This document shows positions 4,132 through 40,032 of a DNA stretch of 64,000 nucleotides, piece after piece. Positions within the stretch are counted from its first letter, which is position 1, and each line of letters begins with the position of its first letter. The DNA comes from Nocardia stercoris (lineage in GTDB: Bacteria; Actinomycetota; Actinomycetes; Mycobacteriales; Mycobacteriaceae), in contig NZ_RFFH01000024.1 of NCBI RefSeq assembly GCF_003696265.1, positions 1-64,000 of the forward strand, written 5' to 3'. Made by a program: the position numbers and the translations under genes. Below the pieces are notes generated by a model. It worked only from the letters and a program-made list of their open reading frames with translations, was not told the DNA's origin and made no database searches.

Positions 4132-4384
4132 CGCCCCGCCGGGGAATCGAACCTGCGACGGTCATCCGCCGGTCGCTCCATCAGGTTGGGCATAACACAG
4201 CAACCTCGAAGACCCGCATTCGGGGCGACGCCGCGAAAGCCAAGGGCCGACCATACAGACGGATACAACCGAAGTGCAGTGCGCGGCAACGAAACCCGAA
4301 GCGGTCTCAGCGAAGCGGACAGCAGGCGGTGTTCCAGATCCTTCACCGAAACCCGCGGATGGCCGCGATACCTCCAGACTTGGA

Positions 4385-19270: not shown

Positions 19271-20026
19271 TCAGTGGTGTGCGGAGCCTGCGGACGATCC
19301 GGATTTGAGGCCGGCGGCCGATCCGCTGGGCAGGCGGAGGTGGGCGTCAGGGATGCCGGTGCCGTCCGGGTCGTTGAGGTCGCCGCCTGTGTCGGGGCTC
19401 CGGCCGGGGTCGACGTTGCGGATGGTGAGATATTTCCACAGTCCGCCGACCGCGCCCGTGCCGCCACCGGCGATAGTGCCGGTGATACCGCCGCCGCTGG
19501 CGAACGCGGCGACCGCGGCCGGCACGGTGGCCAGGCATCCTGGGCCGACGACGAGACAGGAGGCCAGGCCGACGGCGCCGCCGACGAGAGCTCCCGCGAC
19601 AGTGCCGATGACCAGCCCGGCGAGGGTGTTGCGGGTCAAGCCGCTGGCCAGGTCGTCGAGGGCGCGTTGTTCTTCCAGCGGGGAGGCGATCTCGGTGGCG
19701 GTTGCCGGGCGCAGGCTCGTCAGGTCCGGAGTGAGGGTCACGGTGCGGGCGTCATCGGAGAGGCTGTAGCCGAGGTCGCCGCGCTGGTCGTCGAGCAGGA
19801 ACCCCAGCGGCAAGGCAGCCAGCCGGGCGCCGGAGAGGTCGCTGATCTGCAGGGTCCGGTCAGGGCCCGCGGCGATGGTGGCGCGGTCGACGGTGAGGAC
19901 GACCGCACCGCCGGTGAGGGTGGCGTGGTAGGCCGGGTCCGCTGGTTGAGCGTCGGCGGTGGTGGCGGCGGCCAGCACGAGCGAGGCGGCGGCGGCGCCG
20001 GCGAGGCCGAGAGAGCCGATTTTCAC
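19271..20026 (-). CDS. Secreted protein with glycine-zipper hydrophobic segment (paralogue A)
   Basis: 251 aa from GTG 20024-20026, with GGAGA four bases upstream. It has a signal peptide (KIGSLGLAGAAAASLVLAAA then ADAQP), a beta-rich central domain (YHATLTGGAVVLTVDRATI, DARTVTLTPDL, EIASPLEEQRALDDLASG) and a glycine-rich hydrophobic segment (GLVIGTVAGALVGGAVGLAS and more) able to insert in membranes. A polar Gly/Asp/Ser tail ends it. No family function is known. A tandem paralogue lies 25 bp upstream. Confidence 0.75.
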   Translation of the reverse strand: MKIGSLGLAGAAAASLVLAAATTADAQPADPAYHATLTGGAVVLTVDRATIAAGPDRTLQISDLSGARLAALPLGFLLDDQRGDLGYSLSDDARTVTLTPDLTSLRPATATEIASPLEEQRALDDLASGLTRNTLAGLVIGTVAGALVGGAVGLASCLVVGPGCLATVPAAVAAFASGGGITGTIAGGGTGAVGGLWKYLTIRNVDPGRSPDTGGDLNDPDGTGIPDAHLRLPSGSAAGLKSGSSAGSAHH

Positions 20027-20051
20027 GAGGTCTCCTGAAAGAGGGTGCTGT

Positions 20052-20774
20052 CTAGCGGGATTCGTCGGCGGCGGAGGTCTGCTGCCGACGGTTGTTGTAG
20101 TAGTCGCCGTACTGGGAGGTGCCCGGCGGGGCCTGCAGAGTCTGCATGTACTGATAGAGGGAATAGGCGGCGATCGGGCCGCCCCCGACGGCGAGTCCGG
20201 CGATACCACCGATGCCGCCGACCAAGGCGACGACCGGCAGGACCGCGACGACGCAGCCCAGCGACAGCACCAGGCACGATGCCCCGGCGACGGCGAAGCC
20301 GACCCCGATACCGGCGGTGGCACCGATGACGGTGCCGACAAGGCTGCCTAGGGAGGTGCCGATGCTGACACTGTTGATCAGGTCGTTCATCGCGAGCTGG
20401 TTCTCCACCGGCGAGGCGATCGATTCCAGCGTGGTCGCCTCGACTCCGCTGGTGTCCGGAGTCAGGCGCAGCGTGCGGCCGTCGGCGGAGATCTCGTGGC
20501 GGATCGCATGCGCGACGTCGGCGAGGGTGTAGGACAAGGGGATCGCGTCGAGTGGCTGCGCTGCGGCGTCGCGCACCGTCACGGCGCGGCCGTCACCGGA
20601 ATCGGTGAAACTGCCCTGATCCAGGGTCGCGACGATGTCCGTGCCGTCCACGCTCGCGTGGTAGTGCACCGGAACGGGTGCGGGCGCGGTGTCGGCGTGG
20701 ACGACGGTGGCGGTGGCGACTTCGATGCTCGCGGCCGCCATCAGCGCGGTCAGGACGTGTCGGCTGTTTCTCAT
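20052..20774 (-). CDS. Secreted protein with glycine-zipper hydrophobic segment (paralogue B)
   Basis: 240 aa from ATG 20774, chosen because GAGG lies six bases upstream; an in-frame ATG at 20786 lacks one. Signal peptide ends near VVHADTA. The central part (YHASVDGTDIVATLDQGSF, GRTLRLTPDTS, ESIASPVENQLAMNDLI) aligns with the downstream paralogue, as does the glycine-zipper stretch (GTSLGSLVGTVIGATAGIG). It is first in a two-gene unit. A cell-envelope role is likely from the architecture; the exact function is unknown. Confidence 0.75.
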   Translation of the reverse strand: MRNSRHVLTALMAAASIEVATATVVHADTAPAPVPVHYHASVDGTDIVATLDQGSFTDSGDGRAVTVRDAAAQPLDAIPLSYTLADVAHAIRHEISADGRTLRLTPDTSGVEATTLESIASPVENQLAMNDLINSVSIGTSLGSLVGTVIGATAGIGVGFAVAGASCLVLSLGCVVAVLPVVALVGGIGGIAGLAVGGGPIAAYSLYQYMQTLQAPPGTSQYGDYYNNRRQQTSAADESR

Positions 20775-20979
20775 CGGTTTCCTCATTCACGGTGTGGGCG
20801 GGCGCGGCGGTCGCTCACCGGGAAGCGTCTGGGCCGCAAGGTCAGAGGATGCGTCCCTTGCGCCGTCGAGCGCAGCGCGCATCCTCCTGCCCGGCTGAAT
20901 GCCCTGAGTCACAACCATGCGAGAGAGTGACGTGTATCTCAGGTGCGGGTCCGAAGCTAACACGTTTCACTACACTGTG

Positions 20980-20991
20980 TCTACTAGTAGA
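20980..20991. promoter_or_regulatory. 12-bp perfect palindrome upstream of the secreted pair
   Basis: TCTACTAGTAGA is its own reverse complement. It sits in an AT-richer patch (about 20960-21010) of the 412-bp gap between the secreted-protein pair and the divergent TetR gene, about 205 bp from the former's start. It is a candidate operator or promoter-region dyad. Confidence 0.35.
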
Positions 20992-21105
20992 TTCACTGTT
21001 GATTAACGCGGATGTCACCTGAACCCTTGGGCACCCCCCAATGTCGGTGTGCGTCAATGCGCTCCGCTCACGCCGGTCGTGGTCCGCCGGTCTGATGGCT
21101 ACTAT

Positions 21106-21139
21106 TGGACACATCGTCTGTATTCATCCTTCGTGTCCA
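21106..21139. promoter_or_regulatory. Inverted repeat upstream of the TetR gene
   Basis: TGGACAC, 20 bases, GTGTCCA: perfect 7-bp arms ending 47 bases before the TetR GTG. The left arm with its continuation (TGGACACATCGTCTGT) resembles TGGACATCATGTCTGT at 22386-22401 before the downstream operon. That would fit autoregulation by the TetR protein. Confidence 0.45.
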
Positions 21140-21186
21140 TTTTCGATAGGATGTCGACCATCGTTGAGTAGCCGGAAGGGGCCCTG

Positions 21187-21795
21187 GTGGTATCCGAAGA
21201 TCGCCGCAGCCGCCGCAGCCGCCGCCTGTTGCGGGAGGCGTTCGTGTCATTGACCCTCGAACGCGGCTACGCGTCGGTGACCGTGGAGGACATCACCGAA
21301 CGCGCTGATCTGAGCCGGGCCACCTTCTACGGCCACTACACCGACAAGGACGCCCTCCTGGACGCGGTCGTCACCGAACTGATCGAGGAGATGCAGCGGC
21401 GATTGCAGCCCCTTGTCGCGAACTCCGTGAAGGGGTTCACCGGCAAACCGGTCTTGGAGTTGTTCCGGCACGCTGCCGAGGAACGCGACGCCTACCGGGT
21501 CGTGCTCCGCGGCGAAGGCGACGGACGCGCGCTGCGCCGCTTCGTCGAGGACCGCGCCGCCGCCACCGCGACCGTGTTCGCCGACCGCGCCGCCGCCGCG
21601 GGCGTCGAGCTGCGGATCCCCGCGGACATGCTCGCCCGCGCCTGGGTCGGAGAAATGGTGCAGGTGATGGCCTGGTGGCTCGAGCAGGGCATGCCCCAGT
21701 CGGCCGAGCAGATCACCGACGAGCTGCTCAACCTGTCCTTGCGCGGCCGCTACTGGGCCTCGGGCTTCGGAGACATCCCGCCCGCACGCCCCTGA
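21187..21795 (+). CDS. TetR-family transcriptional regulator
   Basis: 202 aa from GTG 21187, with GGAAGGGG upstream. Residues ~5-60 form the TetR helix-turn-helix: RLLREAFVSLTLERGYASVT, VEDITERADLSRATFYGHYT, DKDALLDAVV. The C-terminal helical domain binds an unknown ligand; AWVGEMVQVMAWWLEQGMP is the usual end region of the family. It is the only regulator next to the sulfatase operon and is its likely controller; see the shared upstream motif. Confidence 0.85.
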   Translation: MVSEDRRSRRSRRLLREAFVSLTLERGYASVTVEDITERADLSRATFYGHYTDKDALLDAVVTELIEEMQRRLQPLVANSVKGFTGKPVLELFRHAAEERDAYRVVLRGEGDGRALRRFVEDRAAATATVFADRAAAAGVELRIPADMLARAWVGEMVQVMAWWLEQGMPQSAEQITDELLNLSLRGRYWASGFGDIPPARP

Positions 21796-22388
21796 CCGGC
21801 CCACCGGTCGCCGATCGGCCACCGGGTCCGACCGGTTCCCGGGCCCCGCCCTCGCCGCCATTTCACAGCAGGCGGGGTTTGTTGCCTGGGCGGATCCCAT
21901 CGGCGACCGGGGGCCCAGGCCCGGACAACGTGGCCGCCGAATTGCCAGTGCACGGCTGCGCTGATCACCTGCACCCGTTTCCCCGCGCCAGCCCGCGGCA
22001 GTGTCCGGCAGGAGCCGGCTCCGGCTCCGGACCTCCTTCATCGCACGCTTCGCTGGCCGCCGGGGCCAAAGCCCTCGGCGTCGATCCCGAACCGCGCAGG
22101 CCTCCGCCGCGCCGTTCGCGCCGGCTTCAGCCCGGGCGGCCGCCGATAGCTGTTGCGTCACTTCATGGTCGGGAGTGAGACCTGCGACCGAATTCGGGCG
22201 GTTCGACCAGCACCGAGGACATCGCCGGACCGCTGTTGGCGTTGCCGCTGTCACCGTCAGGCCTCGAGCCTCGATTCTCCAAGCCCTTGTCCACGGCCTC
22301 TGGATGATGTTTCGCCTTCACACGCGAGTTAGCCGTTGCAGCTTCCCGACCACACCTGCCATTCCTGTGAACTTCCACAGGTTTCTGG
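21796..22388. other. Intergenic region before the sulfatase operon
   Basis: About 590 bases with no recognisable gene. GC-rich inverted sequences just after the TetR stop (around 21800-21850) could terminate that gene. The right end becomes AT-rich and leads into the operator at 22389. Confidence 0.4.
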
Positions 22389-22416
22389 ACATCATGTCTG
22401 TTTCTAGTCATGATGT
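22389..22416. promoter_or_regulatory. Candidate operator of the sulfatase operon
   Basis: ACATCATG, 12 bases, CATGATGT: perfect 8-bp arms, ending 15 bases before the first start codon. Size and placement suit a TetR-type repressor that would block transcription or initiation. CAGGGGG at 22421-22427 is the ribosome-binding site. Confidence 0.55.
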
Positions 22417-22431
22417 TTAACAGGGGGTTGA

Positions 22432-22863
22432 GTGTTGGATCGCGACAGATCAAGGACGAACGACGTGTGCAGCCCCACCAGCGAACAGGCCACCGAGGTC
22501 TCCGGCCCCCACCCGGCCGAAAGTGGCCAGAGGGATGCCGGGCCGATCGACTACCGGTTCAGCCTGGCCAACGAGCGCACTTTCCTGGCGTGGATCCGTA
22601 CGGCGCTCGGATTGCTGGCCGGTGCGGTGGCGGTGCAGACCCTGGCCGAGCAGTTCTCGACCTCGGGCTTCCGGCGCGCCGTCGCCGCGGTGTGTGCCGG
22701 TTTGGCAGTCGCGATCGCGGCGTACGCGCACCGGCAGTGGAAAAGCGTCGAGTCCGCCATGACCCGTGGCGAGCATCTACCGGGATCGGCGCTCGTGCCG
22801 GTGCTCGCGATCGGAGTCGGCGCGGTCGCGCTGGCAGCGGACGTCGCAGTGCTGGCGTCGTGA
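22432..22863 (+). CDS. DUF202/YidH-family membrane protein
   Basis: 143 aa from GTG 22432. After a polar N-terminus comes the DUF202 signature (DYRFSLANERTFLAWIRTAL) and three membrane helices (LLAGAVAVQTLAEQF; VAAVCAGLAVAIAAYAH; LVPVLAIGVGAVALAADVAV). Family function is unclear. It overlaps the next gene by four bases (GTGA), so the two probably act together. Confidence 0.8.
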   Translation: MLDRDRSRTNDVCSPTSEQATEVSGPHPAESGQRDAGPIDYRFSLANERTFLAWIRTALGLLAGAVAVQTLAEQFSTSGFRRAVAAVCAGLAVAIAAYAHRQWKSVESAMTRGEHLPGSALVPVLAIGVGAVALAADVAVLAS

Positions 22864-23177
22864 GCGTGGCAGTGCCATGGCCGGCGGATACAGGTCTAGC
22901 GGTCGAACGGACCGCATTGGCCTGGCGGCGCACCGCGCTGTCGTCGGTGCTCGCCGCGTCGGTGCTCACCCACGCCGCGATCAACGCCACAACGGTCGCG
23001 TTCGCTGTGACAGCCGCGGCGGCAGTCGCCGCGCTCGCCGTCACCGCAGCCTGCTGCTACCGCCGAAACCTCACACTGCGGGCACGGCGCCCACACCGGA
23101 TCAGCCCGGTGATCGCGACCGTCGCGGCCGCGGCGACTCTCGCCGCAGCCACCGCGACCCTCGGCCTCGGCCTGTGA
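22860..23177 (+). CDS. Second DUF202-family membrane protein
   Basis: 105 aa from GTG 22860, overlapping the previous stop. It has the shorter DUF202 core (LAVERTALAWRRTALSSVLA) and three predicted helices with a CCYRR turn. Paired long and short DUF202 genes are common in actinobacteria, often as a two-subunit membrane unit; the role here is unknown. Confidence 0.8.
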   Translation: MSVAVPWPADTGLAVERTALAWRRTALSSVLAASVLTHAAINATTVAFAVTAAAAVAALAVTAACCYRRNLTLRARRPHRISPVIATVAAAATLAAATATLGLGL

Positions 23178-23206
23178 ACAGCAACTCTCTGGAAGGAGAA
23201 CCCGCC

Positions 23207-24220
23207 ATGCACCCACCCACACCCGGCCACGAGCCGAACCGCGAGCCGACCGGCGGATGCTGTTGCGCCCCGGCACGTCCGGGCTCCAGCCCGACCGGCG
23301 AGAATCCCGCGCCATCACGCCCCAGCACCGCCCTCGGCGCTCCCGAGCCGCTCACCGCGCTGCCGGCCGCCACTGCGGCCTCGGCACTGGTCCGGCTCCC
23401 GGGCGGCCAGTTCTGGATGGGCAGCGAGGACCCCTACTGTTATGCGGCCGATGGAGAGGGACCGGTGCGGCCGGTCCGGGTTTCGGAGTTCGCCATCGCC
23501 GCGCACACGGTCACCAACGCCGAGTTCGCCCGCTTCGTCAGTGCGACCGGGTATCTCAGCGACGCCGAACGTTTCGGCTGGTCATACGTGTTCGCCGGAT
23601 TCCTGCCGGCGACGCTGCGCCGCAACGCCCGCCGCCCCGACCACACCCCATGGTGGTGCGCGGTACCCGGGGCCAGCTGGAACGCACCGGAAGGCCCCGG
23701 CAGCAACGCCGACGACCGCGCCGACCACCCCGTCGTGCACGTGTCCTGGCACGACGCGCAGGCCTTCTGTGCGTGGGCGGGAGCGCGACTGCCCAGCGAG
23801 GCCGAATGGGAGTACGCCGCACGCGGCGGCCTCGAGCACGCCCGCTACCCGTGGGGCGACGAACCAGAGGACGAAGGCCGCTACCGCGCCAACATCTTCC
23901 GCGGCCGATTCCCCGCCCACAACACCGCCGCCGACGGCTACCCCGGCACCGCGCCGGTGAAGGCGTTCGCACCCAACGCCTTCGGCCTGTACCAGATGGT
24001 CGGCAACGTGTGGGAATGGTGCGCTGACAACTGGTCCAGCGAGCACACCGACGGCCCGGCTGTCGATCCGCGCGGGCCCGCCCACGGTGAGACCCGTGTG
24101 CTGCGCGGCGGGTCGTATCTGTGCCACGACAGCTACTGCAACCGCTACCGCGTCGCGGCCCGCATCCACAACTCACCCGATTCCTCCAGCGGCAACACCG
24201 GATTCCGCGTCGCCGCCTGA
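23207..24220 (+). CDS. Formylglycine-generating enzyme (sulfatase-modifying factor)
   Basis: 337 aa from ATG 23207, with GGAAGGAG upstream. It matches actinobacterial FGE: FWMGSEDPYCYAADGEGPVR near the fold start, WHDAQAFCAWAGARLPSEAE, GNVWEWCADNW, and the copper-binding active-site pair C306-x4-C311 (SYLCHDSYCNRY). FGE uses O2 to oxidise a sulfatase Cys to formylglycine. The N-terminal ~70 residues are Pro/Ser-rich with a CCC cluster and look disordered. It directly precedes its evident client, the sulfatase. Confidence 0.93.
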   Translation: MHPPTPGHEPNREPTGGCCCAPARPGSSPTGENPAPSRPSTALGAPEPLTALPAATAASALVRLPGGQFWMGSEDPYCYAADGEGPVRPVRVSEFAIAAHTVTNAEFARFVSATGYLSDAERFGWSYVFAGFLPATLRRNARRPDHTPWWCAVPGASWNAPEGPGSNADDRADHPVVHVSWHDAQAFCAWAGARLPSEAEWEYAARGGLEHARYPWGDEPEDEGRYRANIFRGRFPAHNTAADGYPGTAPVKAFAPNAFGLYQMVGNVWEWCADNWSSEHTDGPAVDPRGPAHGETRVLRGGSYLCHDSYCNRYRVAARIHNSPDSSSGNTGFRVAA

Positions 24221-24287
24221 GCACCCATCCACCTCCGGGCCTTGCGTCACCCGTTACGGCCCGGCCGCACCGAAAGGGGACATCACC

Positions 24288-25733
24288 ATGTCCGAACAAC
24301 CGATGAACGTACTGGTCGTCATGTCCGACCAGCACAATCCGAAAATCCTCGGCGCCGCAGGCAATCCGATCATCTCGACCCCGAACATGGACGCGCTGGC
24401 CGCGCGCGGCACCCGTTTCTCCAACGCGTATTGCCCGAGCCCGATCTGCGTGCCGTCACGGGCGTCCTTCGCGACCGGGCTCTATCCGCATCAGACCGGG
24501 TACTGGGACAACGCGATGGGCTACGACGGCGCCGTCGAGGGCTGGGGCCATCAGCTTCAGCGTGCGGGCCGCCGGGTCGAGTCGATCGGGAAGCTGCACT
24601 ACCGCAACGCTTCCGACCCGACCGGGTTCGATGTCCAGCATCTGCCGATGCACCTCGCGGGCGGGATCGGGCAGGTGTGGGGGTCGGTGCGCGACCCGCT
24701 GCCGCGCCGCGACAACGCCCCGCTCATGGTGTCGATCTCCGGTGGCGCGGAATCGGACTACACCCGTTACGACGGCGCGGTCACCGACCGCACCTGCGAG
24801 TGGCTGACGCACGACGCCGGCGCGGAGCCGTGGGTGCTCTACACCGGGCTGTTGGCCCCGCACTTCCCCTACCTCGCGCCACCGGAATACTTCGAAATGT
24901 ACGACCCCGCGCAGATGCCGGTCCCGACGATGCGGCCCGAGCACGGCCACACCCGCCACCCGTGGGTCGAGACATTCGCCGGAGTCCTACCGGGCCTGGA
25001 CCACTCGAACACAGAGGAGGAGCGCCGCCGCGCCGCGGCCGCCTACTACGGGCTGGTGTCCTACCTCGACCACAATCTCGGCCGTATCCTGGCCGCCCTC
25101 GAAGAGTCCGGCCAGGCCGACAACACCCTGGTCGTGTACACCAGCGACCACGGCGACATGGTCGGCAGCCGAGGCCTGTGGGGCAAATCGCTGATGTACA
25201 CCGAATCCTCCGGTGTCCCACTGATCATGGCCGGGCCCGGCGTGCCGACCGGGCAGGTATGCGACACCCCGGCCAGCCTCGTCGACCTGTATCCCACGAT
25301 CCTCGACGCCGCCGACGTCGTCCCGTCCGGTCCCGCCCGGCCGGGCCGGTCACTGCGCGAACTCGCGACCGGCCCCACCGATCCGCAGCGAGTGGTGTTC
25401 AGCGAGTACCACGCCATGGGCGCGCCGAGCGCGGCGTTCCTCATCCGCAAGGGCGACTACGCGCTGCACCACTACGTCGGCTACGGCCCCGAGCTCTACA
25501 ACGTGGCGGGCGACCCGGACCAGACCCGCGACCTGGCCGCCGATCCCGACCATGCAGGGATGGTCGCCGAGCTGACCTCGGAACTCACCCGGATTCTCGA
25601 CCCGGAGACCAGCGAGGGTGTCGACAAGCAAGCCAAGGCCGATCAGGCGGCTCTGGTGGACCGCTTCGGCGGGCCCGAAGCGGCCGCAGCCTTGGGCACC
25701 CCCGGCGAGACCCCGCCCCCGGCCGTTGGCTAA
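24288..25733 (+). CDS. Type I sulfatase (FGly-dependent)
   Basis: 481 aa from ATG 24288, with AAAGGGG upstream. The metal site begins MSDQHN; the modification motif is C54-V-P-S-R58, where C54 becomes formylglycine, followed by ASFATGLYPHQTG. A second metal/active-site block is YTSDHGDMVGSRGLWGK. There is no signal peptide, so it acts in the cytosol. It resembles choline-sulfatase/alkyl-sulfatase relatives, but the substrate cannot be read from sequence. With FGE upstream and a flavin dehydrogenase downstream, desulfation of an imported sulfate ester is likely. Confidence 0.92.
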   Translation: MSEQPMNVLVVMSDQHNPKILGAAGNPIISTPNMDALAARGTRFSNAYCPSPICVPSRASFATGLYPHQTGYWDNAMGYDGAVEGWGHQLQRAGRRVESIGKLHYRNASDPTGFDVQHLPMHLAGGIGQVWGSVRDPLPRRDNAPLMVSISGGAESDYTRYDGAVTDRTCEWLTHDAGAEPWVLYTGLLAPHFPYLAPPEYFEMYDPAQMPVPTMRPEHGHTRHPWVETFAGVLPGLDHSNTEEERRRAAAAYYGLVSYLDHNLGRILAALEESGQADNTLVVYTSDHGDMVGSRGLWGKSLMYTESSGVPLIMAGPGVPTGQVCDTPASLVDLYPTILDAADVVPSGPARPGRSLRELATGPTDPQRVVFSEYHAMGAPSAAFLIRKGDYALHHYVGYGPELYNVAGDPDQTRDLAADPDHAGMVAELTSELTRILDPETSEGVDKQAKADQAALVDRFGGPEAAAALGTPGETPPPAVG

Positions 25734-25821
25734 CGCCCCACGCGCAGCCCTCGGCGCACCTCCGCACGGCACGTCGAGCGCGCCGAGGCCTGCGTTCCCC
25801 CTTATCAGAGAGGATTTCACA

Positions 25822-27483
25822 TTGTCGACTGCACAGGTCGCCGACGTCATCATCGTCGGCACCGGATTGGCCGGCCTGGCCGCGGCCGCGGAGTTGGCCG
25901 ACGCCGGCCGCCGGGTCCTGTTCGTCGAACAGGAGAACGCCGAAAATGTCGGCGGGCAAGCATATTGGTCGTTCGGCGGCCTGTTCTTCGTCGACAGCCC
26001 CGAACAACGCCGCGCCGGAATCCGTGACTCGCACGAACTGGCATGGCGCGACTGGCAGGCCACCGCCGGGTTCGACCGCGACCGCGACGATCACTGGCCC
26101 CGCCAATGGGCCGAGGCATATGTGGACTTCGCGGCCGGGGAGAAACGCGCCTGGCTCGGTCGCATGGGCTTGAAAGTTTTCCCGGCGGTGGGTTGGGCCG
26201 AGCGTGGTGGGGCGGGCGCGGACGCGCCCGGTAACTCGGTGCCGCGGTTCCACATCACCTGGGGCACCGGGCCCGCATTGGTTGAACTGTTCACTCGGCG
26301 CCTAGCCCCGGCCGTGGCGGCCGGGCGGGTGCGATTCGCGCACCGCCACCGCGTCGACGAACTGATCGTCGAGGCCGGCGCGGTGGCCGGGGTGCGCGGG
26401 TCGGTCCTGGAACCCAGTGATGCCGCGCGCGGCGTCGCATCATCGCGAACTACAGTGGGAGACTTCGAGTTCCGCGCCCAAGCGGTGGTGGTCGCCTCCG
26501 GCGGCATCGGCGGCGATCCGGCCTTGGTTCGCCGGTTCTGGCCGGCGCGGCTGGGGACTCCGCCCCGGCACATGCTGACCGGGGTGCCCGCCCATGTCGA
26601 CGGCCGCATGCTCGCCGTCAGTGAGACCGCGGGCGCGAATCTGGTGAACCGCGACCGCATGTGGCACTACACCGAGGGCATCACCAACTACGACCCGATC
26701 TGGCCCAACCACGGCATCCGCATCCTGCCCGGGCCTTCCTCGCTGTGGCTCGATGCCACCGGTACCCGGCTGCCCGCCCCGCTGTTCCCCGGTTACGACA
26801 CCCTCGCCACCACCGAGCACATTCTGTCCACCGGCCACGATCACACCTGGTTCATCGCGACCCAGAAGATCATCGAGAAGGAATTCGGGCTCTCCGGGCA
26901 GGAACAGAACCCCGACCTCACCGGCCGCGACCTGCGCAAACTACTGCAACGCGCCAAAGGTGGGGCGCCCGGTCCGGTCGACGCGTTCACCCGGCGCGGG
27001 GTCGACTTCATCGTCCGCGACACCCTGCCCGAGCTCGTGGCGGCGATGAACGCGCTGACCGGGGAGAATCTGCTCGACTACGAGCGCGTCCACGCGCAGG
27101 TCGCGGCTCGCGACGCGCAGCTGGCCAACCCGTACGGCAAGGACCCGCAACTCGCCGCGATCACGGTGGCGCGCAAGTACCTGCCCGACCGGATCATTCG
27201 CGTCGCCGCGCCGCACCGGCTGCTCGATCCCGCCGCCGGCCCGCTGATCGCGGTGCGGCTGCACCTGCTGACCCGAAAGACGCTCGGCGGCATCGAAACC
27301 GACCTCGGCGCACGTGTCATCGCTCCCGACGGAGGAGTGCTGCCCGGCCTGTACGCGGTCGGAGAGGTCGCCGGATTCGGCGGCGGCGGTATGCACGGCT
27401 ACCGCGCCCTGGAGGGCAGCTTCCTCGGCGGTTGCCTGTTCTCCGGCCGCACCGCCGGCCGCGCCCTGCACGCCACCCTCTGA
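25822..27483 (+). CDS. FAD-dependent dehydrogenase, KstD/fumarate-reductase-like
   Basis: 553 aa from TTG 25822, with GAGAGGA upstream. The FAD fold is at the N-terminus (ADVIIVGTGLAGLAAAAELA, then VLFVEQE; GGQAYWSFGG) and the C-terminal FAD part reads GVLPGLYAVGEVAGFGGGG. The middle contains conserved family blocks (WHYTEGITNYDPIW; HTWFIATQKIIEKEFGLSG). Relatives are annotated as FAD-binding dehydrogenases near 3-ketosteroid delta-1-dehydrogenases. It probably desaturates a ring or chain of the desulfated substrate; identity is uncertain. Confidence 0.85.
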   Translation: MSTAQVADVIIVGTGLAGLAAAAELADAGRRVLFVEQENAENVGGQAYWSFGGLFFVDSPEQRRAGIRDSHELAWRDWQATAGFDRDRDDHWPRQWAEAYVDFAAGEKRAWLGRMGLKVFPAVGWAERGGAGADAPGNSVPRFHITWGTGPALVELFTRRLAPAVAAGRVRFAHRHRVDELIVEAGAVAGVRGSVLEPSDAARGVASSRTTVGDFEFRAQAVVVASGGIGGDPALVRRFWPARLGTPPRHMLTGVPAHVDGRMLAVSETAGANLVNRDRMWHYTEGITNYDPIWPNHGIRILPGPSSLWLDATGTRLPAPLFPGYDTLATTEHILSTGHDHTWFIATQKIIEKEFGLSGQEQNPDLTGRDLRKLLQRAKGGAPGPVDAFTRRGVDFIVRDTLPELVAAMNALTGENLLDYERVHAQVAARDAQLANPYGKDPQLAAITVARKYLPDRIIRVAAPHRLLDPAAGPLIAVRLHLLTRKTLGGIETDLGARVIAPDGGVLPGLYAVGEVAGFGGGGMHGYRALEGSFLGGCLFSGRTAGRALHATL

Positions 27484-27513
27484 CTTCCCGACGTATCGAA
27501 GGCGTTGACTCGC

Positions 27514-28188
27514 ATGACAATTCCCCCCGAACCCAGCACCCCGGCCCCACCCGGCCCTGGCACCACGTCCGCCGCGGTGCCGGGAATGCGGGCGTTGTGG
27601 TCGAAGGTCCGTGAGATGGGCGGTGCCCGCCACCTCGTCGACGGCGCCGCACCCGTCCTGGGCTACGTGGCCGGCTTCTCGATGGCCGGCATCGTGGCCG
27701 GGATCACCGCCGCCGTCGGGACAGCTCTGATCGTGGGGGTGGTGCGGCTGCGGCACGGCGACCGCCCCAAGGTCGTGGCCGTCTCCACCGCGATCGTGCT
27801 GGTGTTCTCGGCCTTGGCCGCCACCACCGGCCAAGGCCGCGACTTCTTCCTACCGCCGCTGATCCTCTACGCCGCACTCACGGTCGCGTTCGCGCTCAGC
27901 CTCGCCGCCACCCCGCTCACGCTGCCGATCTGCCGCAAGCTCCGGATCGAACCCATCGAGACGTCCGATCCGGCCGCGCGGGCGCGGTTGCACCGGCGCC
28001 TGACCGCCGCCTGGGCGGTGTTCTGTGCCGCGCACGTGCTGATCATGACCCCGGTGTACCTGGCCGACAACGTGGTACTGCTGGGGACCCTCGCGCTGAT
28101 CCTCAACAAACCCGCCCTGCTCACCGCCTCCGCCGGCACCTGGGTCTGGGTCCGTGGCAGCGGCCGCCGCAGCTCGGCTCACACCTGA
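27514..28188 (+). CDS. DUF3159-family membrane protein
   Basis: 224 aa from ATG 27514, with GAAGG about 10 bases upstream; an in-frame TTG lies at 27505. After a Pro-rich start come paired helices with the family pattern: GAAPVLGYVAGFSMAG, AVGTALIVGVVRLRHGD, QGRDFFLPPLILYAALTVAF and VFCAAHVLIMTPVYLADN. DUF3159 proteins are intracellular-membrane proteins of actinobacteria with no proven activity. Its place in the operon suggests transport or membrane support for the pathway. Confidence 0.8.
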   Translation: MTIPPEPSTPAPPGPGTTSAAVPGMRALWSKVREMGGARHLVDGAAPVLGYVAGFSMAGIVAGITAAVGTALIVGVVRLRHGDRPKVVAVSTAIVLVFSALAATTGQGRDFFLPPLILYAALTVAFALSLAATPLTLPICRKLRIEPIETSDPAARARLHRRLTAAWAVFCAAHVLIMTPVYLADNVVLLGTLALILNKPALLTASAGTWVWVRGSGRRSSAHT

Positions 28189-28249
28189 ACCACCCGCCCG
28201 GCCCTGGCACACCACTCCGTGAAAACGAGACAGCCACAAGGAGATCCCG

Positions 28250-29161
28250 ATGACCCTCCAGCACGACAACCTCTCGCCCACGCTGCTCGCCTGGGCCGAG
28301 CAGGGCCGCGTCGTCAACCCCAACGGCATGGACATCTTCGTCACCGAACACGGCCCCCGCCAGGCTCCCACCTTGCTGTTCATCCACGGGTTCCCCACCT
28401 CCAGCCACGACTGGCGGCACCCCGTCGCGTTGCTGGCCGCCGACTACCATTGCGTCGCCCTGGACCTGCCCGGATTCGGGCTGTCCGACAAGCCGATCGC
28501 CTACAGCTATTCGCTGTTCCAGCAGGCCGACACGGTCGAAGCCGTCGCCGCCGCCCTCGACCTCGCCGATGTCCACGTGATCTCCCACGACATGGGCACG
28601 AGCCTGCACACCGAACTGCTGGCCCGTAAACACCGCGGGACCCTCACCTTCACGCTGGCGTCCTCGACCTTCCTCAACGGCAGCATCCTGAAAACCCACG
28701 CCCAGCTGACCGAATTCCAGAAGATGCTCGAAACCCCCTCCCGCATCCCCGAAGCCGTGCAGGTGTGCGCGCAGATGCTGCCCGACTACGTGCCCGGCCT
28801 GAAGCAGATCATGACCCGCCCCGACCGGATCAGCGACGACGACGCCCAGGTCATGACCGAACTCATGGCCTACCGCGGCGGCAACGCCCGCTTGCCCAAC
28901 GCATACGGCTACGTCCGTGAGCGCTACCTGCACCAGCAGCGCTGGCTCGAAGCCCTCATCCACGAATCCGAGACCGCGCCCGTGCAATTGGTGTGGGCGA
29001 TCGACGACCCCGTCGCCGTGATCGCCATGGGCCGCTCGCTGGCCGAGATGGCACCCAACGCCTGTTACACGGAAGTCCCGGACAGCGGCCACTTCCTGCC
29101 CTTCGAAAACCCGCAAGCCGTCGCCGCCGCCGTCACCGCGTTCGTGCCCATCAGCCACTGA
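28250..29161 (+). CDS. Alpha/beta hydrolase, haloalkane-dehalogenase/epoxide-hydrolase-like
   Basis: 303 aa from ATG 28250, with CAAGGAG upstream. The oxyanion region is FIHGFPTSSHDW; the nucleophile elbow is SHDMGTS, with Asp rather than Ser, as in haloalkane dehalogenases and epoxide hydrolases; the acid lies in WAIDDPV and the His in DSGHFLPFENP. Asp nucleophiles attack C-halogen or epoxide carbons, though some relatives have other substrates. Likely a hydrolytic step of the same pathway. Confidence 0.85.
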   Translation: MTLQHDNLSPTLLAWAEQGRVVNPNGMDIFVTEHGPRQAPTLLFIHGFPTSSHDWRHPVALLAADYHCVALDLPGFGLSDKPIAYSYSLFQQADTVEAVAAALDLADVHVISHDMGTSLHTELLARKHRGTLTFTLASSTFLNGSILKTHAQLTEFQKMLETPSRIPEAVQVCAQMLPDYVPGLKQIMTRPDRISDDDAQVMTELMAYRGGNARLPNAYGYVRERYLHQQRWLEALIHESETAPVQLVWAIDDPVAVIAMGRSLAEMAPNACYTEVPDSGHFLPFENPQAVAAAVTAFVPISH

Positions 29162-29237
29162 TCGCCCGGCCACCTCCGAACACTCTGTCCCACAACCAGA
29201 TCCACACCGATCCCCGCACTCTGGAGAACCGATCCCT

Positions 29238-30371
29238 ATGTCCGCATTCTGGCCGCTGTCGGCAACCGTGCTCGCCTGCCTGGCCGCGCTCCCCGCCGTG
29301 CCCGCCGCCGCTGCTCCCACACCCAGCACCGGCGTCATCGAATCGATCGAACCCCTGCCCACAGCGGCGACACCACCCGGCTCGGTCGACGCTGCCCGCA
29401 TCATCTATTCGACCACCACCGCGGGTGGAGCGCCCGCCACCTCCAGCGGCGCGGTCTACTTCCCACCGGGCCAGCCACCAGCAGGCGGCTGGCCGATCAT
29501 CGCCTGGGCACACGGCACACTCGGCTTGGCCGACGAATGCGCCTACTCCGTGCGCGGACCCGCCGAGGTCGACCGGGACTGGGCCTACCTCGGCGCCTGG
29601 CTCAACCAGGGCTACGCCGTTGTCGCCTCCGACTACGCGGGCCTCGGCACCCCCGGCGGGCAGCCCTACCTCAACGGCAAAGTCGAAGCCGCCAATATCG
29701 TCGACGGCGTCAAAGCCGCCACCCGCCACTACCAGAACTTGTCCAACAAATGGGTTGTAGTCGGCCAATCCCAAGGCGGAGAAGCCGCCATGTTCACCGC
29801 CCGCTATGCCACCGAATTCGGCGGCGGCGAACTGGACTACCGCGGCGCGGTCGGCACCGGGGTCCCCGCCTACAACGAAGAACTCATCGGTCTGACCGGA
29901 CCGGCGTTCCCGCCGATCAAACTCAGCGGCTACAACACCCGCGCCACTCTCTACGTCCTGAACGGACTGGCCACCAGCCACCCCGACCTCGACATCGACT
30001 CCTACCTCACTGACGCAGGCCGCTACTGGTTCACCCGCGCCCAACAGATCTGCGGAGACGACATGTACACCGAACTCACCGATGCCGGAGTCTCGCTGAA
30101 AGACCTGCTGGCCCGCCCGCTGGCCGATCTTCCGCCCGGGGTGCTGCACGACGACCTCGCCCTGCCCGAAACCGGTTTCGACAAGCCGATATTCATCGGT
30201 CAAGGCCTGCGCGACACCAACATCATCATGCCCAACACCCTGCGCTACGCGGCCACCCTGACCGCCAACCATCAACCCCTGACCCTGCACACCTACCCCA
30301 CCGACCACCCCGGCACCGTCAACGCTTCCCTGGTCGACTCGATCCCCTTCGTCGCCAAAGCCTTCGCCTGA
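29238..30371 (+). CDS. Secreted lipase (LIP family)
   Basis: 377 aa from ATG 29238. A signal peptide (ATVLACLAALPAVPAAAA) is followed by the secretory-lipase fold: WAHGTLGLADECA oxyanion region, GYAVVASDYAGLG, the serine elbow GQSQGGEAAM, and the late acid/His region (GLRDTNIIMPNTLRYA; TYPTDHPGTV). It probably releases the operon's substrate from an ester outside the cell. It is last in the operon; no clear terminator was found in the ~265 bases that follow. Confidence 0.9.
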   Translation: MSAFWPLSATVLACLAALPAVPAAAAPTPSTGVIESIEPLPTAATPPGSVDAARIIYSTTTAGGAPATSSGAVYFPPGQPPAGGWPIIAWAHGTLGLADECAYSVRGPAEVDRDWAYLGAWLNQGYAVVASDYAGLGTPGGQPYLNGKVEAANIVDGVKAATRHYQNLSNKWVVVGQSQGGEAAMFTARYATEFGGGELDYRGAVGTGVPAYNEELIGLTGPAFPPIKLSGYNTRATLYVLNGLATSHPDLDIDSYLTDAGRYWFTRAQQICGDDMYTELTDAGVSLKDLLARPLADLPPGVLHDDLALPETGFDKPIFIGQGLRDTNIIMPNTLRYAATLTANHQPLTLHTYPTDHPGTVNASLVDSIPFVAKAFA

Positions 30372-30637
30372 CCCCATCACCAGCGGCGGGCCGGACCACC
30401 ACCGGCCTGCCGCCGGACCCGGCCATTGACCGCGGCTCACCATCCGGCCGACGCCGACAGGCAATCTCAGCATCGCCCCTGTATCGGTTCCCAACCACTC
30501 CTTGCGGCCGCCCGCACCTAGCTTCCCCGGCGTGGCCAGGTTGCCGAGGAGATGAAACGTCGCCACCCAATCCAAGTGTTCGCACACTGAACAGAGGACT
30601 CAAGCTGCGTGCCCCTGACCTGCGACTTCGTCTTCAA

Positions 30638-30708
30638 GTGGGCCTAACGCTCCACAACGCGAACACCCTGACAGCGGTCGGGCCGCAGATCCGAGTCCAA
30701 CCAGTAGA
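30638..30708 (+). repeat. Dispersed repeat A, copy 4
   Basis: GTGGGCCTAACGCTCC, ACGCGAACACCCTGAC, GGTCGGGCCGCAGATCC and GTCCAACC match the other copies. It supplies the first ~23 codons of the methyltransferase frame that follows, so it has replaced or abuts that gene's natural 5' end. Confidence 0.65.
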
Positions 30709-31423
30709 GGGCGACGCATTCGGGGACATGCTGATCGACGAGCTCGGGGCGCCAGGGGTAGCGGAGATCGTCGAGCGTGACGACGGCCACATCTTCGCAA
30801 CACCTGCCGCTCGCTACGTCGCCGTCGGCGAAGAGTGGCCAGAGCTGGACCGGGCGGCGGTCGCGGCGTGTGCGGGACGTGTTCTCGACGTCGGTGCCGG
30901 CGCAGGTCGGGCGAGCCTGGCCTTACAGCAGGCCGGTGTTCCAGTGCTGGCGCTGGACACCTCGGCGGGCGCGATCGCGGTGTGCGGCAGCAGGGGCGTA
31001 TCCGACACCTTCCACGGCGAAGTCGGTGAACTGGCGAATCAGGACCAGCCGGTGTGGGACTCGGTATTGTTGCTGGGCAACAACCTCGGCCTGCTTGCAT
31101 CACCGAAGCAGGCGCCGCAGTTTCTGGATGCGCTCGCGGCGGTGACCAGCCACGGCGCGCGGATCTACGGTCGTGGCACCGACCCGTACCGGACCAGCGA
31201 CCCACTGCACCTGGAATATCACGACCGCAACCGGACCGCAGGCCGACCAGGAGGGCAACTACGGTTGCGTGTGCGGCACCGCCGCACCGCCACCGGGTGG
31301 TTTGATTACTGGCTAACCTCGGCCGATGAACTCGTCGAAGTGTTGGCGGCGACACCATGGCGGCTCGAAGACCTGCACCACAGCGACCAGCAGGATTACC
31401 TCGCCGTCCTGGTCAAGCGGTAG
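30638..31423 (+). CDS. Class I SAM-dependent methyltransferase
   Basis: 261 aa if read from GTG 30638. Family similarity starts only near DAFGDMLIDELG, then IVERDDGHIFATPAARY, and the SAM site RVLDVGAGAGRASLALQQAG with LALDTSAGAIAVC. The first ~23 residues come from dispersed repeat A, so the native start is lost or disguised; ATG 30728 is an alternative. The C-terminus (YWLTSADELVEVL, LAVLVKR) looks complete. Substrate unknown. It stands alone. Confidence 0.7.
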   Translation: MGLTLHNANTLTAVGPQIRVQPVEGDAFGDMLIDELGAPGVAEIVERDDGHIFATPAARYVAVGEEWPELDRAAVAACAGRVLDVGAGAGRASLALQQAGVPVLALDTSAGAIAVCGSRGVSDTFHGEVGELANQDQPVWDSVLLLGNNLGLLASPKQAPQFLDALAAVTSHGARIYGRGTDPYRTSDPLHLEYHDRNRTAGRPGGQLRLRVRHRRTATGWFDYWLTSADELVEVLAATPWRLEDLHHSDQQDYLAVLVKR

Positions 31424-31503
31424 ACGGTACGGCCGAGTGGCGGACCGCTTCATGGCATGGGAATTCGGTTGCCGACGGCCAAGTTGGCGCGTTTGCTGAG
31501 GTG

Positions 31504-32905: not shown

Positions 32906-34192
32906 ATGACTCAGACCGTCGCGACGCACCACGCCGCGCAGCGGGGCCGGCCCCGGCCGCCCACGGAGGAGATCGATCGGCGCCGGCCTGCGCTGCCGTC
33001 GCTGACCGGAGCCCGATGGTGGGCGGCGTTCGCCGTATTCCTCCTGCACGCCATGGTGTTCCTGCCGGTCTACCCGTTCCAATGGTCGGCCCTGTTCCGC
33101 CGGATCGACTGGTTCGCGCCCATGCAGCTGGGCGCGTGCGGAGTCACCTTCTTCTTCGTGCTGTCCGGCTTCATCATCTACTGGTCGTTCAAACCCGGCA
33201 CCGACGTGCGCGCGTTCTACCGGCGGCGGGTCCTGAAGATCTATCCGTCGCATCTGGTCGGTATGGCGGCCTTCATCCTCGCCGCCGGTGGCATTCCGTG
33301 GTCACACCTGCACGTGTGGCTGCCGAACCTGCTGCTGGTGCACACCTGGGTGCCGACCTGGACCCTGGTCGGCGGACTGAACGTGCCGTCGTGGTCGCTG
33401 GGCGCGGAAATGCTCTTCTATCTGACCTTCCCGTTGTTTCTGCCGGTACTGCGGCGGATCCCGTCCCACCACCTGTGGCTGGCCGCCGCAGTGATCTTCG
33501 TCCTCATCGTCGCCCTGCACACCTCCTACTACCTGTGGGTGGACGGCCCGAAGGGCATCACCAACGAATTCGCACCCCGACTGCGGGCACCGCACGACGT
33601 CTCACCGCACTTCGAACCGCACGCCGACCCGCGCTGGTTCACCCTCGACACGATGGCGCCGCCGCGCTCCTACTGGCTGAGCTACACCTTCCCGCTCACC
33701 CGGCTGCCCGAATTCCTGCTCGGCGTGCTCACAGCGCGGATGGTGCTCGAGGGCAAGTGGCGCAACACCCGGATCTGGCCGCCGTTGATCGCGCTGGCCG
33801 CCTCGTTCGTGGCGACCTGGTTCGTGCCGGTGAACTACAAGATGGGCGTGCTGCTACTGGTTCCGACGACCGCGGTGATCGCCACGATGGCAGCCCGGGA
33901 CCTGGCCGGCGTCCGGGGACTGAACGCATCACCACCAATGGTGTGGCTGGGCAATGTGTCCTTCGCCTTCTACCTGATCCAGTACCCGGTCATGGCCGCG
34001 GTCACGCGCTTCCTGATCGGCGGCCACTCGTTCGGGTTCCTGGGCTGGCTCGGCTTCGCGGCGCTGTGCCTGGCGCTGTCGGTCGGCGCCGGCGCGCTCA
34101 TCTACCACTGGGTCGATTTGCCGATCATGCGGAATCTCGCGCGCGGCAAAGAGAGGCCGAGGGCGGCCGCGGCTGCTGTACACGCCGCATAG
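32906..34192 (+). CDS. Acyltransferase-3 family (OafA/YrhL-like) membrane acyltransferase
   Basis: 428 aa from ATG 32906. About ten membrane helices follow a polar N-terminus. Family marks are LTGARWWAAFAVFLLHAM with the conserved His, GVTFFFVLSGFIIYWSF, FYRRRVLKIYPSHLVGM (R/K-rich loop) and SWSLGAEMLFYLTFPLF. Such enzymes O-acylate cell-surface glycans or metabolites. An SGNH hydrolase follows 65 bp downstream; in many bacteria these two activities are fused or paired. Confidence 0.88.
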   Translation: MTQTVATHHAAQRGRPRPPTEEIDRRRPALPSLTGARWWAAFAVFLLHAMVFLPVYPFQWSALFRRIDWFAPMQLGACGVTFFFVLSGFIIYWSFKPGTDVRAFYRRRVLKIYPSHLVGMAAFILAAGGIPWSHLHVWLPNLLLVHTWVPTWTLVGGLNVPSWSLGAEMLFYLTFPLFLPVLRRIPSHHLWLAAAVIFVLIVALHTSYYLWVDGPKGITNEFAPRLRAPHDVSPHFEPHADPRWFTLDTMAPPRSYWLSYTFPLTRLPEFLLGVLTARMVLEGKWRNTRIWPPLIALAASFVATWFVPVNYKMGVLLLVPTTAVIATMAARDLAGVRGLNASPPMVWLGNVSFAFYLIQYPVMAAVTRFLIGGHSFGFLGWLGFAALCLALSVGAGALIYHWVDLPIMRNLARGKERPRAAAAAVHAA

Positions 34193-34256: not shown

Positions 34257-35162
34257 ATGAACAAACCCGGTAAGCGGCTCCTGTGGATCGGTCTCGCGGT
34301 CGTTGCCGCTGCTGCACAGCTCGGGGCGGCAGGGGCGGCCCATGCCGACGATGCCGCCACACCCGGCAAGTCCCTTGTCGTCCTGGGTGATTCGATGGCC
34401 GCGAACGTGCCCTACGAGTGGCACACCGGCGGGACGATCTGCAACCACGGGGCGACGTCGTGGCCGAATCAGCTCAGTACGCGGCTGGGGACGGGTCCCG
34501 ACGACTTCGTCGACGAATCCTGCACCGGCGCGACGATCGACAGCGGACAGGACTACACACTGACGGTCCAGGCCCGCGCGGCGGCGGCCGCCGACGCGTT
34601 CGGTCCGCAGACGAAGATGGTCGCGCTCCAGTTCGGGCTCAACGACACCTGGCGTGACGGTGAACCCAACCCGTACTCCCAGGTCTTCGTGAACTGTGCG
34701 ATCACCGCCGGGCTGCTGTGCAGCAACGACGATCAATCCTGGGTGACCGACGACCACGGTCTCAACGGCAGCCACTACGCCGACAAAGTGCGAAAGGTGG
34801 TGCAGTACATGCGCTACTACGCGCCCGCCGCCAAGATCGTCCTGGTCGGCTATCCGCAGGAGTTCGTCCCTGGGCAGAACACGCTGTGCGTGGACCTCGG
34901 CCCGGTCCAGATCCAGGAGCACAACGGCGCGGTGGCGGGATACTTCGACCGCTTGGAGGCCGCCCAGCGCGACGCCGCTCAGCTGCTCGGCGTCGAATAC
35001 CTCGATGTGCGCGCACTCAACGCCGGTCACGAGGAATGCGCCACCGATCCATGGGTGCAGACCTTCGACCTGCCCGACGTCGGGCTGCCGCTCGTGTTGC
35101 ATCCGCGACCGCAGCTCGAGACCGCGGTGAGTGAGGCGCTGGCCGCCGAGGTCGCCGGCTGA
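34257..35162 (+). CDS. Secreted SGNH/GDSL hydrolase
   Basis: 301 aa from ATG 34257. Signal peptide (LLWIGLAVVAAAAQLGAAGA, cut near AHADD). Block I is VLGDSMAANVP (nucleophile Ser), block III is FGLNDTW, and the C-terminal His appears in LVLHPRPQLE. Several Cys pairs suggest an exported, disulfide-bonded enzyme. It probably transfers or removes acyl groups outside the cell, working with the upstream acyltransferase. Confidence 0.88.
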   Translation: MNKPGKRLLWIGLAVVAAAAQLGAAGAAHADDAATPGKSLVVLGDSMAANVPYEWHTGGTICNHGATSWPNQLSTRLGTGPDDFVDESCTGATIDSGQDYTLTVQARAAAAADAFGPQTKMVALQFGLNDTWRDGEPNPYSQVFVNCAITAGLLCSNDDQSWVTDDHGLNGSHYADKVRKVVQYMRYYAPAAKIVLVGYPQEFVPGQNTLCVDLGPVQIQEHNGAVAGYFDRLEAAQRDAAQLLGVEYLDVRALNAGHEECATDPWVQTFDLPDVGLPLVLHPRPQLETAVSEALAAEVAG

Positions 35163-38571: not shown

Positions 38572-39293
38572 CGGCGCAGCACACCCACGTTCGAGCTCAA
38601 TGCCAGCCCGCTCCATCCGGTCTCCGCGATCAAGTCCTGGACGCCGACGGTGTACCAGTCGTTGACGTACTCGACGGTACGCAGAATCCGCTGCTGCCGG
38701 GAGACGGTCCACCGGGTGCGCCACCGCATCAGATCAGGTCCGGCGGGTTCACCGGATATCCAGCCCTCGTAGTCGTCCTCGCCGACCGACTCGCGGGCGA
38801 AGCGCATCTCCGGCATCGAGGCGGGGGCGGGCAACGGGATCACTTCGACGATGACCGGTGCACCCGCTGGAAGGCGGTCTGCGAGTCGCTGCCACAACGC
38901 CGTTCGCTCTTGTCGGTCGAGATGGCCGACCATGCCCAAGAGCACGACGGCGGACAGGCGGTCCGGCAGTGGTGCGTTCTGGGCGGTGTCGGCCAGGACT
39001 GTGACCCGGCGGCGCAGATCATCGTCGGACACGACCCGGCTGAGCAACACCGCCCGCATAGCGGTCGCCGGCTCGACGGCGAGGATACGGGCATCGGGCA
39101 GCGCGGCGGCGATGGTCTCGACGGCACGCCCGGTGCCCGCACCCAAATCGAGTACCGGGCCGTAGCCGGTGTCGACGTCGGCGAGCGTTTCGGTGAGCAG
39201 CCTCGCCGTTTCGGTCTGCGTGCGGGCAGCCAAGTCGTAGAACTCGGCTACGGGTGAATACGATTCGGACATCATGTCTTTCGGTCTCGTCAC
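38568..39293 (-). CDS. SAM-dependent methyltransferase of the metallophore operon
   Basis: 241 aa from GTG 39291-39293, overlapping the thioesterase stop; ATG codons at 39275 and 39272 are alternatives. SAM site: GPVLDLGAGTGRAVETIAAA, then RILAVEPATAMRAVL and LLGMVGHLDRQER. It is a free-standing enzyme, in addition to the methyltransferase domain inside NRPS2, so the product may carry a second methyl group (for example on a phenol, carboxylate or ring). The target is unknown. Confidence 0.8.
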   Translation of the reverse strand: MTRPKDMMSESYSPVAEFYDLAARTQTETARLLTETLADVDTGYGPVLDLGAGTGRAVETIAAALPDARILAVEPATAMRAVLLSRVVSDDDLRRRVTVLADTAQNAPLPDRLSAVVLLGMVGHLDRQERTALWQRLADRLPAGAPVIVEVIPLPAPASMPEMRFARESVGEDDYEGWISGEPAGPDLMRWRTRWTVSRQQRILRTVEYVNDWYTVGVQDLIAETGWSGLALSSNVGVLRR

Positions 39294-40030: not shown

Positions 40031-40032
40031 GG

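Follow-up and report, generated by a model that had tools for sequence, protein, structure and literature searches.

What is achieved in Nocardia stercoris by a sulfatase gene that lies next to its own maturase gene, downstream of a local regulator gene? This question is raised by the stretch of 64,000 bases analysed here (the window), which is the first part of contig C17 (71,171 bp) in a genome of 7.55 Mb. The window contains a TetR-type regulator gene, followed by genes for a formylglycine-generating enzyme (FGE), a type I sulfatase, a flavoprotein, an alpha/beta hydrolase and a lipase, and the original prediction, made from the sequence alone, had these act one after another on a sulfated steroid, bile acid or sulfolipid. 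From comparisons with other Nocardia loci, we favour with moderate confidence a different reading, namely a TetR-repressed cassette for the utilization of sulfate esters. Its core, consisting of TetR, FGE, sulfatase, a DUF3159 membrane protein and a pair of DUF202 membrane proteins, recurs in other Nocardia.

Eight genes follow each other on the + strand from 22432 to 30371, with successive gaps of -4, 29, 67, 88, 30, 61 and 76 bp, and are probably carried on one transcript under the control of TetR. All six previously named genes are present at their predicted places, on this strand and in the predicted order, but two overlapping DUF202 genes 5' of the FGE gene and a DUF3159 gene between the flavoprotein and hydrolase genes had been missed. 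The short gaps likewise hold for the eight genes (-4 to 88 bp), but not for tetR itself, which is set off from the first operon gene by 636 bp. Between 20800 and 31000 there is one promoter-like match, located in front of the operon (0.6 expected by chance), and three terminator-like sites on both strands together (3.2 expected by chance), the sole + strand one falling inside the flavoprotein gene.

A search with the sulfatase in 119 genomes gave matches at E 1e-30 in six, with more than 37% identity in only three: the window genome itself, G010 (85%) and G012 (69%). Scans of GTDB contigs, where the best 80 of 439 confirmed loci were kept and counts are at least those found, and of PLSDB (623 records, one above 60% identity) added Nocardia sulfatase loci at 68–86% identity. 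Eight Nocardia loci were compared by tblastn, clustering and profile search, over the sequence stretches available for each: the window, L011 (in G010), L020 (a 329-kb plasmid of Nocardia sp. NBC_00511), L024, L025, L026, L027 (taken to be the G012 locus) and L028. TetR, FGE and sulfatase are each encoded in all eight, DUF3159 is encoded beside or near the sulfatase in seven (the exception being L026), and the DUF202 pair is found in five. One or two secreted hypothetical proteins, encoded on the strand opposite to tetR, accompany six loci (exceptions L025 and L026). The alpha/beta hydrolase gene is part of the locus in the window and in L026, while the flavoprotein and lipase genes are present in the window only and were not found in the examined stretches of the other seven loci. 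Gene order is altered in L027, whose TetR is only 42% identical to that of the window. In Nocardia sp. SYP-A9097 the frame of a second sulfatase copy (L028, 8817-10448) is split in two, with the rest of the cassette present.

The upstream regions of these loci share a two-box site of 36 bp, derived by palindrome and k-mer comparison and scored with a position weight matrix (PWM) from which each locus was left out in turn, with 59 other actinobacterial loci as the control. At the operon promoter this candidate operator is the best match of the locus in seven of the eight Nocardia loci (scores 36.5–49.3), compared with a maximum of 13.1 in the control loci. A second site in the window lies 47–83 bp 5' of tetR, and all other window positions score 11.2 or less. 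When the window genome (7.5 Mb) was searched with an IUPAC pattern allowing up to two mismatches, exactly the two expected sites were recovered and none with the control pattern. With operators 5' of both tetR and the operon, and no third genomic site at this stringency, the predicted regulated unit for sulfate-ester hydrolysis with its own maturase appears sound. The start of the secreted hypothetical pair in L020 also carries a weaker operator-like site (22.3).

The sulfatase contains the maturation motif C54-V-P-S-R58 of type I enzymes, and D14, Q15, K102, H104, H192, D287, H288 and K300 are invariant in four Nocardia orthologues. Because no signal peptide is evident by eye, the enzyme probably acts in the cytosol. 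Its AlphaFold2 model (pLDDT 86.5) is closest in fold to the choline sulfatase 6fny (TM 0.85), and choline sulfatases are also the closest solved structures by sequence (6fny, E 7.7e-55). However, the choline sulfatase equivalog TIGR03417 is missed (score 273.5 bits, cut-off 433.45). In PMC5870055, Glu386 of the choline sulfatase SmCS is described as binding the quaternary ammonium of choline. The corresponding position in the window sulfatase, counted by hand from the alignment, is Met377, and the same column holds M, A, V, I or S, never Glu, in 10 aligned members of the clade; the outgroup rows have Glu (L043, L060), Asn (L046) or His (L037). We infer that the substrate is a sulfate ester other than choline-O-sulfate.

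The sulfatase clade also takes in proteobacterial enzymes at 46–54% identity, and the loci of eight of these were compared (L021-L023 and L030-L034), several of which end at contig ends. A flavoprotein of the GlcD family is encoded near the sulfatase relative in four of them (L021, L022, L023 and L030, from Rhodobacterales and Paraburkholderia), in each case below the GlcD cut-off; the one in L022 (7995-10828) is closest to a solved D-lactate dehydrogenase (E 6e-140). A TTT-type substrate-binding protein is encoded in five (L021, L022, L031, L032 and L033). These neighbours weakly indicate sulfate esters of hydroxy-carboxylates.

The FGE matches the solved aerobic FGEs 6s07, 5nxl and 6muj, from Thermomonospora and Streptomyces, at E 7e-98 or better, and its cysteine pair (CHDSYCNRYR) aligns with CHESYCNRYR of 6s07. 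Its designation as a dedicated FGE was reasonable: of the four PF03781 genes in the genome, only this one adjoins this sulfatase gene. Among the others, a profile search places a sulfatase-like gene next to those on C8 and C12, and the one on C1 has none in the 18 kb read.

Orthologues of the window TetR (64–81% identity) are encoded in G004, G010, G013, G029, G030, G053 and G057, and all of these genomes except G010 are without the sulfatase. The six loci concerned (L202-L207) share a sister gene set, comprising an acyl-CoA synthetase, an acyl-CoA dehydrogenase, a DUF202 pair, a beta-lactamase-fold (serine) hydrolase and a major facilitator superfamily (MFS) transporter. The candidate operator is present in all six, with scores of 24.0–36.3, and none of these sites was used to build the matrix; an operator-like site is also found 5' of the MFS gene in L203, L204 and L207. 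Solved relatives of the beta-lactamase-fold hydrolase of L207 are named 6-aminohexanoate-dimer hydrolase. L026 is intermediate, combining TetR and FGE-sulfatase-hydrolase with an MFS protein that is 63–67% identical to those of three sister operons. In the TetR tree six rows of the sulfatase type form a supported group (100/98), with L026, L027 and the acyl type outside. On the simplest reading, TetR, the operator and the DUF202 pair look like a chassis that is reused with alternative catabolic cargo, and the inducers would therefore be chemically related. A catabolic role for the cassette is plausible because the operons under the same operator suggest catabolism of organic acids or esters. 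Because the orthologous TetR, operator and DUF202 pair accompany an operon with acyl-CoA ligase, dehydrogenase and hydrolase, an organic acid or ester in sulfated form would be the most likely substrate. A steroid reading of the sister operon was also considered, and no steroid or bile-acid model scored above its cut-off in the 10 proteins scanned.

The two DUF202 genes of the window overlap by 4 bp, and their products (143 and 105 aa) both pass the PF02656 gathering score. DUF202a is 39% identical to E. coli YidH, which was considered a candidate D-alanine exporter and, according to PMC10299036, was not borne out as such by a transport assay. The DUF202 profile also recognises the VTC-complex protein Vtc1 (E 0.0024). 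PMC9911596 places residues K24 and R31 of Vtc1 TM1 along the polyphosphate channel, and R42 and R49 of DUF202a fall on these positions when matched by eye on the shared ANERTF motif. As a sign of a link with sulfatases these residues were rejected, since DUF202 genes with no such link often carry the Arg/Asp pattern too. We hypothesize that the DUF202 pair, together with DUF3159, provides the membrane partners of the cassette; from the kinship of DUF202 with the VTC polyphosphate channel, they would most simply form an anion conduit.

In other genomes DUF202 and FGE genes are close together more often than chance would give, though seldom. Among the matches listed for the sampled Actinomycetes, a DUF202 gene is within 10 kb of an FGE gene in six cases outside the window genome (seven including it), with 0.47 expected (P ~1e-5); the test comprised 129 same-genome combinations, including the window genome, assumed a mean genome size of 5.5 Mb and left out second members of DUF202 pairs. 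Five of the six loci also have a sulfatase-like gene, and L106 has none in the 18 kb read. A role of DUF202 as a general sulfatase partner was rejected: among the 40 best-scoring DUF202 loci, some of which end at contig ends and from which the known positives L107 and L108 were left out, a sulfatase-like gene was found only in L144 and an FGE gene only in L113 (control 0/19 stretches). The motif C/S-x-P/A-S/A/T-R was not found in the L144 protein, and the FGE gene of L113 is ~8 kb off. In the open-licence literature we found no paper that links DUF202 with sulfatases or describes the cassette, text matches for both terms being false matches to DUF2023, DUF2027 or DUF2029.

Taken together, we propose that TetR would bind the two-box operators of tetR and of the operon until a small organic ligand releases it. 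FGE made from the operon would then convert Cys54 of the sulfatase to formylglycine, and the sulfatase, probably in the cytosol, would strip sulfate from an imported ester other than choline-O-sulfate. The DUF202 pair and DUF3159 may act as the anion conduit, for import of the ester or for release of sulfate or the acid. The alpha/beta hydrolase plausibly participates, and the flavoprotein and lipase appear to be strain-specific additions.

Several observations weigh against this proposal. The substrate class rests on neighbour genes only, the structure model of DUF202a is weak (pLDDT 60.7; VTC match E 0.66), and DUF202 also accompanies the sister operon, which is without a sulfatase, so that a direct link between DUF202 and the sulfatase is not evident. 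DUF202 was not found in the examined stretches of L024, L025 and L026, three of the eight sulfatase loci. There is no conserved canonical transporter in the Nocardia sulfatase loci, and the MFS protein of L026 has no homologue in the window genome at E 1e-40, a weak negative. In the seven loci that have the operon-promoter site, the sites at the tetR promoter are weaker (15.6–37.1 when scored with the full matrix, two of them being among its input), that of L011 (15.6) being close to background, and L027 has no comparable site by the sulfatase gene (14.1 near DUF3159; 25.2 ~8 kb away). L011 has a further operator-like site (969-1004, score 20.8), ~7 kb from the cassette and upstream of an unrelated gene (1132-2040) whose product is predicted to be secreted and has a GDS motif. 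Over the 119 genomes the operator pattern with up to two mismatches gave 12 matches and the reversed control also 12, and just six of the operator matches belong to a TetR gene or to this operon; the pattern alone is not specific across genomes. Of the nine matches outside G000 and G010, three are directly 5' of a TetR orthologue (G013, G030 and G053).

Of the other explanations, the one that fares best is scavenging of sulfur or sulfate by a broad arylsulfatase that is induced by many aryl sulfates, with a DUF202 pair unrelated to the chemistry. The constancy of FGE and sulfatase in all eight loci fits this, as do the absence of DUF202 from three of them and the two further pairs of FGE and sulfatase-like genes in the window genome. 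We nevertheless consider it unlikely, given a local TetR for which the whole genome has only two sites, and an orthologous TetR and the same operator that accompany carbon-catabolic genes elsewhere. An extension of the proposed cassette, in which Nocardia swaps cargo on the TetR-operator-DUF202 chassis and hydrolysis of the ester in the cytosol is coupled, through a VTC-like anion channel made by the DUF202 pair, to passage of the ester or its products across the membrane, is unlikely as a whole; if true, it would give a metabolic role to bacterial DUF202 proteins, including YidG and YidH of E. coli.

The stepwise pathway of the original prediction is very unlikely. It is in keeping with the co-directional genes, the gaps below 90 bp and the single operator, with the acyl-CoA ligase and dehydrogenase of the sister operon, and with an old-yellow-enzyme homologue and an HsaB-like reductase in the surroundings of L207. 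However, the reductase remains below its cut-off (177 of 230 bits), as do the matches to BaiCD (149.7 of 825), CasG (299 of 750) and HsaD (36.5 of 400), and no steroid or bile-acid model reached its cut-off among the proteins scanned. The flavoprotein, which had been called KstD-like, was placed in the wrong family: it is a PRK12834-type FAD-binding dehydrogenase (NF009472, 950 bits, cut-off 476), a family for which we know of no substrate. Three KstD models gave 54.7, 47.4 and 40.6 bits against cut-offs of 789, 788 and 793, and a solved KstD matches only at E 4e-5 over ~50 residues. At E 1e-80 the flavoprotein family is found in 48 of 60 relatives, including 35 of 36 Nocardia genomes, mostly as a single copy and mostly in genomes without the sulfatase. 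The synteny search for FGE, sulfatase and FAD dehydrogenase, suggested as a check, gave the flavoprotein in the window alone. The window genome has a second copy on C19, 63% identical to that of the window. A tree was built from 10 rows, in which only four Nocardia genomes are represented apart from the window genome. The C19 copy groups with the rows of these four, and a 100/100 branch separates them from the window copy, which is joined by four rows from other families. Because this places the window copy outside the Nocardia group, it was probably acquired; its position across this branch and its lack from all seven other loci led us to reject it as a core member. Of 60 genomes, 34 have a match to the lipase family at E 1e-60, and the window genome has three (paralogues on C56 and C55); the lipase is considered secreted from a PF03583 score above the cut-off and a signal peptide judged by eye. 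The alpha/beta hydrolase is the only one of these genes seen again beside the sulfatase gene. It has no match in the other 59 genomes at E 1e-50, its counterpart in L026 (67% identical) is encoded directly 3' of the sulfatase, and both copies have an Asp nucleophile in the elbow (SHDMG). Its score for the haloalkane dehalogenase model PRK03592 is below the cut-off (86.8 against 241 bits). Because it is absent from the 59 genomes and yet adjoins the sulfatase gene in L026, it is plausibly the accessory gene likeliest to belong functionally.

Still less probable is a main activity as a phosphonate monoester hydrolase (PMH) or phosphodiesterase. The fold and the formylglycine serve both chemistries, PMHs rank with the better matches in both sequence and structure, and according to PMC5870055 they share a Gln-Lys pair; however, the fold is nearer to choline sulfatases (TM 0.82–0.86) than to PMHs (0.70–0.73), and the PehA model gave 159.7 bits against a cut-off of 900. 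Hydrolysis of choline-O-sulfate for osmolyte or choline supply, to which the nearest solved structures would point, is extremely improbable in view of the missed equivalog and the replaced Glu386.

The features of the cassette are listed below. Pfam gave nothing for the two secreted hypothetical proteins (19271-20786), and a phage origin of the cassette was rejected, since 20800-31500 had no megablast match in the phage collection. Upstream of the cassette are an integrase-core (rve) gene (3074-4195) and a tRNA-Ser gene (12469-12543), possible traces of a mobile region. Downstream, genes for an acyltransferase-3 membrane protein (32906-34192, +) and a GDSL-type esterase (34257-35162, +) are found. 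The window further contains a non-ribosomal peptide synthetase cluster (39290-57114, -, with 57231-62331, +), whose synthetases of 3134 and 1815 aa together have five AMP-binding stretches, with methyltransferase and thioesterase domains in the smaller one; it also encodes another thioesterase, an ABC transporter and a Trp-halogenase-like flavoprotein.

Table 1. Predicted features of the sulfatase cassette, with positions in the window.
Feature	Position	Strand	Evidence
TetR/AcrR-family repressor	21187-21795	+	PF00440 44.6 bits; homologue in 8/8 Nocardia sulfatase loci
DUF202a membrane protein, YidH-like, ANERTFLAW motif	22432-22863	+	PF02656 66.5 bits
DUF202b membrane protein, YidG-like	22860-23177	+	PF02656 30.9 bits (cut-off 23.4)
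Formylglycine-generating enzyme (aerobic FGE type)	23207-24220	+	PF03781 269 bits; 6s07 E 4.5e-114
Type I sulfatase, C54-V-P-S-R, non-choline clade	24288-25733	+	PF00884 172.8 bits; active-site columns kept
FAD-binding dehydrogenase, PRK12834 family, accessory	25822-27483	+	NF009472 950 bits
DUF3159 membrane protein	27514-28188	+	PF11361 88.7 bits
Alpha/beta hydrolase, Asp nucleophile (SHDMG), accessory	28250-29161	+	PF00561 96.1 bits
Secreted LIP-family lipase, accessory	29238-30371	+	PF03583 35.3 bits (cut-off 23)
Candidate tetR-promoter operator, two-box	21104-21139	+	PWM 28.9, leave-one-out 29.4; 0 mismatches to pattern
Candidate operon operator, overlapping sigma-70-like promoter match (22386-22414)	22384-22419	+	Leave-one-out PWM 44.6, best of 64-kb window
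Secreted hypothetical proteins, two, opposite strand to tetR	20052-20786; other within 19271-20341	-	Homologues (one or two) in 6/8 Nocardia loci

FGE, type I sulfatase and TetR are ordinary parts, and pairs of FGE and sulfatase genes are of a known kind. The arrangement is conserved, and we have not seen it described in the open-licence literature: an FGE-sulfatase pair with a local regulator, a conserved candidate operator and recurrent membrane partners of the DUF type. Gene content, synteny, catalytic residues, the conservation of the operator and the shared chassis can be read from the sequences, whereas repression, co-transcription, the class of substrate and the function at the membrane are inferences. 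The candidate operator could be used for direct discovery of the inducer, and hence of the substrate. DUF202 shares its regulator and operator with a sulfatase or with acyl-CoA enzymes, depending on the genome, which offers an entry point to the function of a domain that both E. coli and yeast possess; its closeness to FGE genes above chance in other actinobacteria offers a further one.

The known systems that resemble the cassette each do so in part. BetC of Sinorhizobium meliloti (6fny) has in common with the window sulfatase the fold, the formylglycine Cys and the positions of Asp14, Gln15, Lys102, His104 and Lys300, and differs in the choline-binding glutamate. Compared with the solved aerobic FGEs, the window FGE has ~56 extra N-terminal residues, which contain Cys and are unaligned. 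The yidH-yidG-yidF / yidJ region of E. coli likewise has a DUF202 pair near a sulfatase-like gene, with yidGH ~0.6 kb from yidJ, but no FGE is annotated there, the transporter gene yidK adjoins yidJ, and the 165-aa YidF has no Pfam match. The VTC polyphosphate polymerase has TTM and SPX domains and polymerase activity, whereas the window DUF202 proteins are without these domains, and their likeness to the membrane domain of Vtc1 is DUF202-wide rather than specific to sulfatase loci. The sister Nocardia operon (L202-L207) has the TetR (64–69% identity), the operator and the DUF202 pair in common with the window cassette, and carries acyl-CoA enzymes where the latter has FGE, sulfatase and DUF3159.

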